A stretch of 38,985 bases of DNA from a virus. Location of the stretch: positions 1-38,985 of the IMG/VR virus record IMGVR_UViG_3300027911_000033. One strand, given 5' to 3'. The notes under the pieces were generated by a model that ran no database searches, was not told where the DNA came from, and saw nothing but the letters and a program-made list of their open reading frames with translations. Shown in pieces: positions 10,286 through 33,165 of the stretch; position 1 is the stretch's first letter, and each line of letters opens with the position of its first letter. A program made the position numbers and the translations under genes.

Positions 10286-10534
10286 ACTCCTATATTATGA
10301 ACTCATCGAACCGGTACAATCCCCAGCCCCATAACGTGGATGTTCTTTATACTGCCCGGAGACAGTTACAGCACACATTAGACCCGATTGTTCATGTCGC
10401 TATTGTCGCCATCTTCCGATGGAAATGTGTTTTACTGAACGGTACAATATAACCCGAATCGCAACCTTTATTCTACCGTGTTATCTGAGTTTGCCGTAGC
10501 GTCCGGACCAACAGTGTAGAGGTATTCAACAGAC
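10286..10534 (-). other. long untranslated leader between promoter and 59-residue gene
   Basis: If the 10535-10545 promoter is real, these ~250 bases are transcribed ahead of the 59-residue gene. They contain the imperfect repeat ATTGTACCG twice (near 10308 and 10448) and a copy of GAGTTTGCCGTAGC (10487-10500) shared with 13716-13729. No convincing gene or known riboswitch was recognised. Confidence 0.4.
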
Positions 10535-12167: not shown

Positions 12168-12187
12168 CCCCATGTGCGCGGATAAGG
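12168..12187. repeat. 20-bp repeat CCCCATGTGCGCGGATAAGG, copy 1
   Basis: Identical to 13778-13797; a looser copy (CATGCGCGCGGATAGG) lies at 11280-11295 within the HNH gene. Both exact copies sit just upstream of a small leftward gene. Possible regulator-binding or RNA element. Confidence 0.75.
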
Positions 12188-12211: not shown

Positions 12212-12382
12212 TTACTCAACATGAGAAGTGTCATACACATACTTGTAAATAGCCTCAGCTTCCCATTCTTCAATCTCCTTCAAGAGTATTCGAAGCCTCA
12301 ATCTATCAACTAAGCACGACATACTCATATCGAAGGCTTGCTTCTGTTCCTCATCAAGTGTTTCGAACTCCTCCTTATTCAT
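12212..12382 (-). CDS. small acidic helical hypothetical protein
   Basis: 56 residues, MNKEEFETLDEEQKQAF onward. The start is a triple ATG (12388-12380) after GGAGA that overlaps the 3' end of the DGQHR gene; the third ATG has the best spacing. Strongly helical (LVDRLRLRILLKEIEEWEAE), Glu-rich. It is co-transcribed with the DGQHR-like protein and may be its partner. No family was recognised. Confidence 0.6.
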   Translation of the reverse strand: MNKEEFETLDEEQKQAFDMSMSCLVDRLRLRILLKEIEEWEAEAIYKYVYDTSHVE

Positions 12383-13499
12383 CATCATTCTCCAGTTGGC
12401 AAGGCTCAACCTGCTTAGTATCAGGAAAGTGCTTAGTGAAGATTTCCGACAGCTTTTCGATATAAGGACCTTCTGTGGACGAACCCGAAATACCCCTAAA
12501 TCCATTACTGAAACCCTTATCACTTAGTCCATATTCGAAAAACTCTGTGAGAACAGGGGAAAGATCCATACCAATCTTCAGGGCATTGATACTACCGACC
12601 TTATTCGTTTCGATAAGGCGAACGATGAGAGGTGTGACGATAGCATTCTGGATGATACTGAATAGGTGTCCGTGTGACCAATCCTTATCACCATGGGTGA
12701 GACCATAACTGGCAGCAGGGTCATACACCTTCGAACCCAAGGCTAAGCCGATCCCTTGCCATACACGACCGATATCACCGGTAATCTCATTGATGACACG
12801 TTGCGAAGGAGGCTTACCATTTAGCAGATACTTGGCCAGAGGTGCGAAACTCACTGCGGTACGATGGAAACGAAGGAACTGAGTGCCTTGACATGGCGGC
12901 TTCTTGAAGGGTTGTTCGATGTGTGTGCGATAAGGACCATTCATTTCCGAAAAAGCACGGGTAATCAGAGCAGACAGACCACGAACCGTATTCGTCTTGC
13001 CACGGACATACTGACTTGCGAGGGAAAGATCCATCAAGGCAGGAGCCATCTTTCGACCACGACCATTGATATTGAAAAAGACTTCTTCTTCACCATCATC
13101 ATCACAGACGATAAGGGTAAACATCAACTTATAGTCCATACCCTCACCGATATCACGATTCGCTTGAAGCCAACGGTGACCACCATCAACCATATACGAC
13201 TTATCCACATCCTTAGGGCTGGGAAGGTCACCATTCAGCATATCCTGAATCATCCGTTCTTCGGAAGCAGCATTCTTCGGGATAAGGCGAACTGATAGTA
13301 GGGTTTCCAGAACAGGAAGATTGGGATTCGACAACGCTCGTTCGTGAATAACTTCTCCGAACTGCTTTACGTGGGATTCTCGTTGGTCACGCTGGACAAT
13401 CTCAAGGCGGGAGAAATCCGACTCATTGATATCCGGTGAATAGTTGACATGAAACTCGGAAATAGACATAACAACAGGTAATAGTGCTTTGATAGCCAT
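12375..13499 (-). CDS. DGQHR/DndB-like domain protein
   Basis: 374 residues; ATG 13499 follows AAGGAG. Residues 103-111 read MVDGGHRWL, matching the DGQHR signature (Q replaced by G), followed at 140-150 by VFFNINGRGRK, which resembles the conserved FxxIN motif of this family. DGQHR proteins are ParB-like nucleotide-binding-fold proteins that include DndB, the regulator of DNA phosphorothioation. Phage copies are of unknown role. It has its own promoter (TTGACA, 17 bp, CATACT) with a symmetric element over the start region. No Dnd enzymes are present here, so a role in countering or tuning a host modification system is only a guess. Confidence 0.65.
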   Translation of the reverse strand: MAIKALLPVVMSISEFHVNYSPDINESDFSRLEIVQRDQRESHVKQFGEVIHERALSNPNLPVLETLLSVRLIPKNAASEERMIQDMLNGDLPSPKDVDKSYMVDGGHRWLQANRDIGEGMDYKLMFTLIVCDDDGEEEVFFNINGRGRKMAPALMDLSLASQYVRGKTNTVRGLSALITRAFSEMNGPYRTHIEQPFKKPPCQGTQFLRFHRTAVSFAPLAKYLLNGKPPSQRVINEITGDIGRVWQGIGLALGSKVYDPAASYGLTHGDKDWSHGHLFSIIQNAIVTPLIVRLIETNKVGSINALKIGMDLSPVLTEFFEYGLSDKGFSNGFRGISGSSTEGPYIEKLSEIFTKHFPDTKQVEPCQLENDDE

Positions 13500-13597: not shown

Positions 13598-13747
13598 TTA
13601 TTTACCTTGATATTTTAGGTCATTGATACGTTTTTTGATTGCTTCTATTAGTTCCTCAGCGATCCTTTGGTTTTCCTCTTGTTCCTTGAGGGGTCTTTGA
13701 GGTAGCCTTGTTATCGAGTTTGCCGTAGCTCCCGAAGTGATGCCCAT
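13598..13747 (-). CDS. small coiled-coil hypothetical protein
   Basis: 49 residues: MGITSGATANSITRLPQRPL then KEQEENQRIAEELIEAIKKR, ending YQGK. ATG 13747 follows ATAGGA. The second half is a clear helix or coiled coil. It lies ~180 bases downstream of a CATAAATA motif, behind the folded leader at 13825-13917 and a copy of the 20-bp repeat, so expression is probably controlled at the RNA level. Function unknown. Confidence 0.55.
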   Translation of the reverse strand: MGITSGATANSITRLPQRPLKEQEENQRIAEELIEAIKKRINDLKYQGK

Positions 13748-13777: not shown

Positions 13778-13797
13778 CCCCATGTGCGCGGATAAGG
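13778..13797. repeat. 20-bp repeat CCCCATGTGCGCGGATAAGG, copy 2
   Basis: Exact copy of 12168-12187, between the folded leader and the ribosome-binding site of the 49-residue gene. Confidence 0.75.
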
Positions 13798-13824
13798 TGT
13801 TTTTTTATAGACGCACACAAACGA

Positions 13825-13917
13825 GAGGTAACTGAGATTGCTTCTCAACAGCAATAGGAACCCACTGAGGATGAGTACCTTTCTCAGTTACCTCGTAATG
13901 CTAATGGTTCTTATTGC
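13825..13917 (-). ncRNA. folded leader RNA, pseudoknot-like
   Basis: Two interleaved inverted repeats: A, GAGGTAACTGAGA (13825-13837) with its exact complement at 13882-13894 (13 bp), and B, GCAATAGGAACC (13851-13862) with GGTTCTTATTGC (13906-13917; 11 of 12 paired). The order A-B-A'-B' is the topology of a pseudoknot. A small hairpin ATTGC/GCAAT (13837-13855) competes with B. The element begins ~10 bases after a leftward CATAAATA motif and precedes the 49-residue gene. It could be a regulatory leader or a small RNA; a DNA-level protein site is the alternative. Confidence 0.5.
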
Positions 13918-13926
13918 CTGTCTTTA

Positions 13927-13934
13927 TATTTATG
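13927..13934 (-). promoter_or_regulatory. late-promoter-like octamer CATAAATA (leftward)
   Basis: CATAAATATAAAG on the minus strand, immediately ahead of the folded leader. The first gene downstream starts 179 bases away, the longest spacing among the 12 sites. Confidence 0.55.
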
Positions 13935-13992
13935 TGGATCATAACACAAATGAGAAACTAAATCAACTACCGAGTATCACGCGAATACGCTA

Positions 13993-14021
13993 TTGCTTAT
14001 AAGCCCTCAGTCTGTTATAGT
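13993..14021 (+). promoter_or_regulatory. sigma-70-like promoter (rightward)
   Basis: TTGCTT (13993-13998), 17-base spacer, TATAGT (14016-14021) with a TG one base upstream of the -10. It drives the five small rightward genes that end at the 15249-15282 terminator. Confidence 0.5.
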
Positions 14022-14075: not shown

Positions 14076-14363
14076 ATGAGCAACCTTGACTTTCTACCGC
14101 CAGATCAACGCGAAGTGTTCCGTGACTTCGCCCTGTATAACCTGCTGGATGATGTAACTTCCGATTACTTGCAAACTCTCCACAGTATGGAAACACCGGA
14201 AATGTGCCGAATCCGTAAGGAAAGCATTGACTTCCTTGTTCGAGTGAAGCAACAGCATACGGAACGATATATTGCCTGGCAACACACGGATGAAGATGAT
14301 GATGAAATCGCCTACGAGGAAGATAATGGCATTTACGAAGATAACGGTATATTTCGGAAATAA
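14076..14363 (+). CDS. acidic hypothetical protein, 95 residues
   Basis: Starts MSNLDFLPPDQREVFRDFAL; ATG follows AAGAGG. The first ~70 residues are helical, and the tail is extremely acidic (DEDDDEIAYEEDNGIYEDNG), as in DNA-mimic or charge-shielding phage proteins, although no homology supports that. First gene of a rightward operon of five tiny genes. Confidence 0.65.
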   Translation: MSNLDFLPPDQREVFRDFALYNLLDDVTSDYLQTLHSMETPEMCRIRKESIDFLVRVKQQHTERYIAWQHTDEDDDEIAYEEDNGIYEDNGIFRK

Positions 14364-31827: not shown

Positions 31828-33165
31828 TTGCTTATCACCATCATCGATCAGGGCGCCGTCGCTGGTGCCTTTGCGCTAAGGTGCGCAGAACATGGCCATA
31901 CCGTTAAGTGGTTTATTGAACCCAAACCAGGTAATAACCAAAAGATTGGCACAGGACTCCATCCAAGCATAGAGAGGGTTAAGCAATGGCTCCCCTGGGC
32001 TGGAAAATCTGATTTAGTCGTATCTACAGAGAACGGCAACTATCTACCTAAGCTGGAGATGCTTCGAAAAAGAGGTATCGCTGTATTCGCTCCTAGTCAA
32101 GCTGTTGCTGACTTGGAAATTGACCGTAAGAAGGGTATGGACTTTCTGGAAGCACACGGTATCAAAGTTCCGGAATACAAGACCTTCAAGAATATTAAAG
32201 AGGCACAGAAATATGTGTACGACAATCCTGCTCGTTACGTATTCAAAACACTTGGTGATAATGATAACAAGGCCTTATCATTCGTAGGTAAGACACCACA
32301 ACAGATGATCCAACAACTACAGACCTGGATGGACAATAAGGTACCCATCAAAGGCGATGTTATGTTGCAGGAATTCATTGAAGGTGTCGAATTCGGATGC
32401 TCACGTTGGGTCGGTAAGGATGGATTCTTCGGACCCATTGAGGAATCATTCGAACACAAGAAGCTGTTCCCAAGTGAAAAGGGTGTCAATACAGGTGAAA
32501 TGGGTACAGTAGCCAAGTATGTAACCGAGAGCAAGTTATTCGACAAGGTACTCAAGCCACTTGAAGAAGATTTAGTCAAGATGGGTGCCTTCACATCAGT
32601 AGATATCAACTGTATCATCGATAAGAAAGGTAATCCGTGGCCACTAGAGTTTACAAGTCGCTGGGGATGGCCTATCTTCAATCTGGTATTGTACGCACAC
32701 AAAGGTGATCCTGCACAGTGGATGTATGATGCTTGTAAGGGTAAAGAAACACTCAAAGCATCTAAAGATGTGATGATTGGTATCGTTTTGGTTATACCTC
32801 CATTCCCATTCGAGGATAAGGACCAAGTAACCGAGAACATTCCCATCTATGGTATCACAAAGAAGAACTGGGAGAATATTCAACCTCAATCCGTGATGGC
32901 AGGTAAGTTCATCGATGAGGTTGATGGAGAAATGAAGGAAGTTGATGGTTGGGTTACTGCTGGGTCTTACGTTCTAGTTGTTGTTGAAACAGGAAAGACA
33001 ATCGAAGATTCCCGAGATAAGGTATACAAGATCGTCGGTGAGATTTCTATCTCTGATATGGGATATCGTGATGATATCGGTGAGAAGGTTATCAAGAATC
33101 TACCAGAATTACAAAAACATGGATTTGCCGGAGAATGGGAGAAGGCTGATGACAACGGAAAATGA
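31828..33165 (+). CDS. PurD-like ATP-grasp ligase
   Basis: 445 residues, starting at TTG 31828, which follows GGAG at 7 bases. It has a Rossmann-like N-terminal domain (1-95), then an ATP-grasp fold: AYVFK-type strand YVFKTLGD (~137), VMLQEFIEGVEFGCSRWV (178-195), HKKLFPSEKGVNTGEMG (210-226), which matches the glycinamide ribonucleotide synthetase signature (DHKRxxD...GPNTGGMG), and LEFTSRWGWP (273-282) matching LExNxRFGDPE, with the Asn replaced by Ser. These enzymes make amide bonds using ATP. No other purine gene is present, so a different amine or acid substrate is likely. It sits in a divergent pair with a glycosyltransferase, hinting at a shared modification pathway. Confidence 0.75.
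   Translation: MLITIIDQGAVAGAFALRCAEHGHTVKWFIEPKPGNNQKIGTGLHPSIERVKQWLPWAGKSDLVVSTENGNYLPKLEMLRKRGIAVFAPSQAVADLEIDRKKGMDFLEAHGIKVPEYKTFKNIKEAQKYVYDNPARYVFKTLGDNDNKALSFVGKTPQQMIQQLQTWMDNKVPIKGDVMLQEFIEGVEFGCSRWVGKDGFFGPIEESFEHKKLFPSEKGVNTGEMGTVAKYVTESKLFDKVLKPLEEDLVKMGAFTSVDINCIIDKKGNPWPLEFTSRWGWPIFNLVLYAHKGDPAQWMYDACKGKETLKASKDVMIGIVLVIPPFPFEDKDQVTENIPIYGITKKNWENIQPQSVMAGKFIDEVDGEMKEVDGWVTAGSYVLVVVETGKTIEDSRDKVYKIVGEISISDMGYRDDIGEKVIKNLPELQKHGFAGEWEKADDNGK

Follow-up and report, generated by a model that had tools for sequence, protein, structure and literature searches.

The element and its setting

In an uncultivated virus record of 38,985 bases, analysed here at full length (the window), two inverted repeats are interleaved within 93 bases between gene sets that point away from each other, and the question is whether these repeats act as RNA, act as DNA or have no function. 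The predicted proteins of the window identify a phage, with family matches to terminase, portal (head-tail adaptor), major head, head-closure and DNA-ejection proteins; within the structural gene region a 445-aa protein (31828-33165, + strand) contains phosphoribosylglycinamide synthetase ATP-grasp and C domains (Pfam GARS_A and GARS_C). The element lies between a leftward 49-aa ORF, accompanied by a leftward 374-aa ORF (12375-13499), and rightward small genes beginning at 14076. Because promoter-like sites point in opposite directions here, with two overlapping on the leftward strand and another directed rightward, the sequence places the element in a putative divergent control region. The 374-aa protein carries a VDGGHR motif and resembles DGQHR-domain families weakly, with scores under the cutoff (TIGR03187, E = 0.021; DpdB, E = 0.033), and no relative of it was found in IMG/VR or among cultured phages.

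Table 1. Coordinates in the window of the repeat arms and of the features predicted around them
Feature	Position	Strand	Sequence or remark
Arm A	13825-13837		+ strand sequence GAGGTAACTGAGA; 13 bp, perfect pairing with 13882-13894
Arm B	13851-13862		+ strand sequence GCAATAGGAACC; 12 bp, one mismatch, interleaved with A
Arm A'	13882-13894		+ strand sequence TCTCAGTTACCTC
Arm B'	13906-13917		+ strand sequence GGTTCTTATTGC; at 5' end of predicted leftward transcript
Late-type promoter motif CATAAATA	13927-13934	-	exact; predicted start near 13921 by T4 spacing
Sigma-70-type promoter	13938-13966	-	TTGATT-17-TATGAT, TG extension (TGTTATGAT); consensus match only; predicted start near 13931
Divergent rightward promoter-like site	13993-14021	+	extended -10 TGTTATAGT, hexamer from 14016; weak -35 TTGCTT; consensus match only
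Candidate operator half-site	13948-13957	-	inverted near-copy (9/10) of TTTCTCAGTT
49-aa ORF	13598-13747	-	charged, probably helical; downstream of putative leader; AGGA before ATG
54-aa ORF	13838-14002	+	TTG start, one hydrophobic stretch; crosses element, antisense to putative leader
Second leader hairpin	13785-13818	-	3' arm overlaps repeated 20-mer (13778-13797)

The interleaved arms exceed chance

An earlier note on this DNA had described two interleaved inverted repeats in the order A-B-A'-B', and all four arms were recovered exactly where it had placed them, separated by spacers of 44 nt in A and 43 nt in B. The element thus has the arm arrangement of an H-type pseudoknot, two interleaved helices, and the single mismatch of B would be a G.U pair in the + strand RNA and A.C in the proposed leftward RNA. 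Apart from repeat A, the window contains no perfect inverted repeat of at least 12 bp at a span of up to 140. When the window was shuffled with its dinucleotides preserved, a repeat of at least 13 bp (span of up to 100) appeared in 15 of 300 shuffles (about 5%), and an A-like repeat together with an interleaved partner of at least 12 bp in none of the 300. With A held fixed and its surroundings shuffled, an interleaved partner of at least 12 bp, with at most one mismatch, arose 10 times in 3000 (about 0.3%). The interleaved arms A and B exceed chance. Among 1556 segments scanned for folding, each compared with just 40 shuffles, the lowest z-score (-5.2) was that of the leftward strand at 13801-13900, and this low value stems mostly from helix A.

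Overlapping promoter-like sites point leftward into the element

The element had been described as lying behind a late-type promoter. An exact CATAAATA motif is indeed located directly upstream, and its 11 copies in the window, against 2.0 expected, are all intergenic or ahead of genes and nearly always correctly oriented just upstream of them, a distribution from which it appears to be a genuine promoter motif of the phage. The designation as solely late-type did not stand, as a sigma-70-like site with an extended -10, identified by consensus match, overlaps the motif. Ten of the CATAAATA copies are found 19-53 nt before a start codon and the copy at the element 179 nt before one; the set spans 8694 to 36035 and includes two divergent pairs (22496/22518 and 31770/31792). 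Like the T4 late promoter TATAAATA (PMC2988020), whose position -13 was used to predict the start near 13921, the motif is an A+T box without a conserved -35 and is enriched ahead of virion genes. Unlike in T4, the main form here is CATAAATA; the TATAAATA form is present in the related contig G003 described below, and more distant relatives lack the motif set. T4-like late promoters depend on a gp55-type sigma factor and on activation by a sliding clamp, and no gp55-like factor was recognised among the proteins scanned from the window of this phage of about 39 kb. Promoter-like sites from which the element could be transcribed occur on the leftward strand only, and on the + strand no such site was detected just upstream of it.

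Predicted folding of the leftward RNA

The best predicted fold of the leftward RNA is nested: helix A closes it, two weak hairpins lie inside, and its energy is -33.2 kcal/mol, against -25.1 kcal/mol when B is forced. A crude estimate for the pseudoknot gave -23.7 to -32.3 kcal/mol, so that the nested A fold equals or beats it and the stable pseudoknot that had been suggested is unsupported. In these models a full pseudoknot of the leftward RNA is not favoured energetically, though it may still form, and the term pseudoknot refers here to the arrangement of the arms rather than to a demonstrated fold. The competing small hairpin that had also been proposed stays within chance, as the interior of A, compared with shuffled interiors while A was kept, gave z-scores of -1.0 on the leftward and 0.0 on the + strand. 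In simulated growing transcripts, with lengths counted from 13931, helix B is predicted to form at 86-102 nt and to be supplanted by A at about 110 nt; on the opposite strand the predicted order is reversed, A preceding B, and the mismatch of B becomes a wobble pair.

The second leader hairpin overlaps a 20-mer (leftward CCTTATCCGCGCACATGGGG) that occurs exactly at 12168-12187 and again at 13778-13797, where 0.01 matches were expected. Both copies lie within predicted leftward leaders, and one of them just after a UUCG-capped hairpin (GGGGACTTCGGTCCCC), ahead of the ribosome-binding site of a 58-aa ORF.

Small ORFs at the element

The 49-aa ORF gave no confident family match and is preceded by a plausible ribosome-binding site, which follows the unusually long leader of 179 nt. 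This site is predicted to be about half to three-quarters unpaired, with the A domain folding independently of it. Sequestration of the site by arm B (UUCCUAU against AUAGGAA) was considered and rejected, as the 7-bp pairing, although possible, is not the favoured state at equilibrium. The 54-aa ORF of the + strand has neither a good ribosome-binding site nor a family match and is probably not a gene. The proposal that no protein is encoded here is probably right, with the qualification that this ORF does cross the element.

Search for relatives of the element

Searches by DNA recovered no homologue of the element from cultured phages, plasmids or 1.74 Mb of fetched relatives, nor did a search of IMG/VR by arm pattern, records very close to the window's own genome possibly being withheld from the collections searched. 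When the flanking proteins were used as queries against IMG/VR and cultured phages, no genome covering the element was obtained, and the immediate neighbour genes had no relatives there. One 16-mer gave 11 exact matches that share a single arm, about as many as chance would give in so large a collection. A covariance model built from the element alone recovered only the element itself and its mirror strand, and Rfam 15 gave no match in the window at the gathering threshold, the region itself yielding only chance-level matches (E>1). In 15 related phage contigs a pseudoknot scan detected weak interleaved pairs of 9-11 bp and no counterpart of the element. A hammerhead was rejected, since inspection by eye of both strands found CUGANGA on the + strand and no GAAA partner, in agreement with the absent Rfam match.

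The nearest relatives found were IMG/VR contigs, foremost G003 (IMGVR_UViG_3300050010_000209, 36.8 kb), which is collinear with the window, cut at another point, and has a capsid protein 87% and a portal protein 65% identical to those of the window. The corresponding intergenic region of G003 contains an inverted repeat of 21 bp (L008:10047-10107; 95%, with 18 bp perfect and a loop of 19 nt) that is unrelated in sequence to the element; no other close inverted repeat of the contig is as long. The 9-mer at the ends of this repeat, AACTTGATT, has four copies in the contig, all within 173 bp (L008:9935-10107), and these form two inverted pairs, one straddling a TATAAATA promoter and the other ending the 21-bp repeat. 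Beside this hairpin, in a long, apparently non-coding and hairpin-rich divergent region, G003 also has a near-identical 45-nt direct repeat (91%; L008:10108-10152 and 10456-10500).

A possible structured leader RNA and the alternatives

The explanation to which we lean, with somewhat less than even confidence, is that the element is a stable structured 5' leader RNA of a leftward transcript. Transcription would start at the extended -10 host-type promoter (about 13931), at the phage CATAAATA promoter (about 13921) or at both, so that the 5' end of the RNA would lie 4-14 nt before arm B'. During transcription B' would pair first with B, and once arm A had emerged the stronger 13-bp A helix would displace B, leaving a hairpin domain, very stable and with A as its closing helix, and a single-stranded 5' tail. 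Such a domain would probably serve to stabilise the start of the transcript, or to time downstream events ahead of the 49-aa ORF, such as the access of RNases, ribosomes or RNA polymerase factors.

Several results argue for this reading. The top folding z-score of the window falls on the leftward strand, A and the interleaved B exceed chance, and B forms before A in the growing predicted transcripts. The promoter motif appears genuine and has an outlier leader length at this copy, the A domain is predicted to fold apart from a ribosome-binding site that is itself at least half accessible, and suitably placed promoter-like sites occur on the leftward strand only. Against it, no homologue was found to supply covariation, the mismatch of B would pair as a wobble in the + strand RNA but not in the leftward one, and the interior of A is not structured beyond chance.

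The main rival, which we regard as rather unlikely, is a DNA operator, in which the arms and their near-copies would be dyad sites for a phage regulator of the divergent promoters and RNA folding would be a by-product. The sequence TTTCTCAGTT (13880-13889, in arm A') has an inverted copy matching at nine of ten positions in the spacer between the leftward -35 and -10, and a further copy at 13830 matching at eight of ten. Nowhere in the window is the TTTCTCAGTT motif denser than in the 131 bp from 13830, though the motif was derived from this same site and picked post hoc. Given these copies of arm parts around the promoter, and the AACTTGATT pairs that flank the promoter and end the 21-bp repeat in G003, a DNA-binding site would also fit. 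However, interleaved arms 44 and 43 nt apart would be unusual in simple operators, and no recognisable DNA-binding regulator was present among the neighbouring proteins tested. A small regulatory or decoy RNA that stands by itself (an antisense, sponge or 5'-protected RNA) in place of a leader is a good deal less probable: the domain is compact at 93 nt and near the predicted transcript start, and there is no clear need for such structure before the 49-aa ORF, yet the stretch from the element to that ORF yielded no intrinsic terminator in the leftward direction, and a match in Rfam is missing.

The known systems compared bear on the remaining possibilities. The leader could be a put-like antitermination RNA that, by binding to RNA polymerase, would let transcription of a leftward early operon read past terminators, and like putL of HK022 (PMC9378689) it follows closely on a candidate early promoter within a divergent region. 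The antitermination activity of put is exerted via the beta' zinc-binding domain of RNA polymerase. The put RNAs have two successive stem-loops in about 70 nt and come in two related copies, one on each arm (PMC9378689), whereas the element is predicted to form one domain, closed by A and with an alternative helix that interleaves with it, and has no second copy in the window; no leftward terminators were seen downstream, up to the 374-aa gene, and we consider this reading very improbable. A part in a replication origin was rejected, with hardly more than a slight probability left to it. The cumulative GC-skew minimum of the window does fall at 13.3-14.2 kb, and with it the inverted repeats; that of G003 is at 6.4 kb, away from its corresponding divergent region, so that the minimum is not common to both. 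Moreover, gene orientation alone could produce the skew, and no initiator was found nearby. That the inverted repeats are chance occurrences without function is the least probable explanation of all: A alone could so arise, as the 15 shuffled windows indicate, and the feature was chosen by eye, but the joint occurrence of A and B, the adjoining promoter and the non-coding position make a coincidence unlikely.

The leader pseudoknot of T4/T2 gene 32 (PMC3014915) resembles the element in that its helices interleave and that it precedes a gene in the 5' leader of a phage RNA. That pseudoknot has coaxial stems, lies 67 nt upstream of the start codon, is followed by UUAA repeats and is bound by gp32 (PMC3014915). 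In contrast, the element has stems of 12-13 bp and a favoured nested fold, and is about 78 nt from the ORF; no gp32-like gene was identified, and the element is not shown to be a pseudoknot of the gene 32 type. ToxI, a further pseudoknot-type RNA of the phage-host field, is an antitoxin made of RNA repeats, with a ribonuclease as its toxin partner, whereas the element is present in one copy and has no toxin candidate.

Returning to the structured leader, it is conceivable, though improbable, that the element represents a new class of leader RNA in phages. Helix B at the 5' end would then be transient and would give way during transcription to the stable long-range helix A, and the RNA would act as a timed, protein-free switch at overlapping host-type and phage-type promoters. 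If real, the leader would be a compact and testable case of a phage RNA that refolds during transcription, at promoters of both types. If the operator reading is true, the repeats would instead mark the control region of a poorly studied group of uncultivated phages, and under either reading the sequence of the element is specific enough for direct testing.
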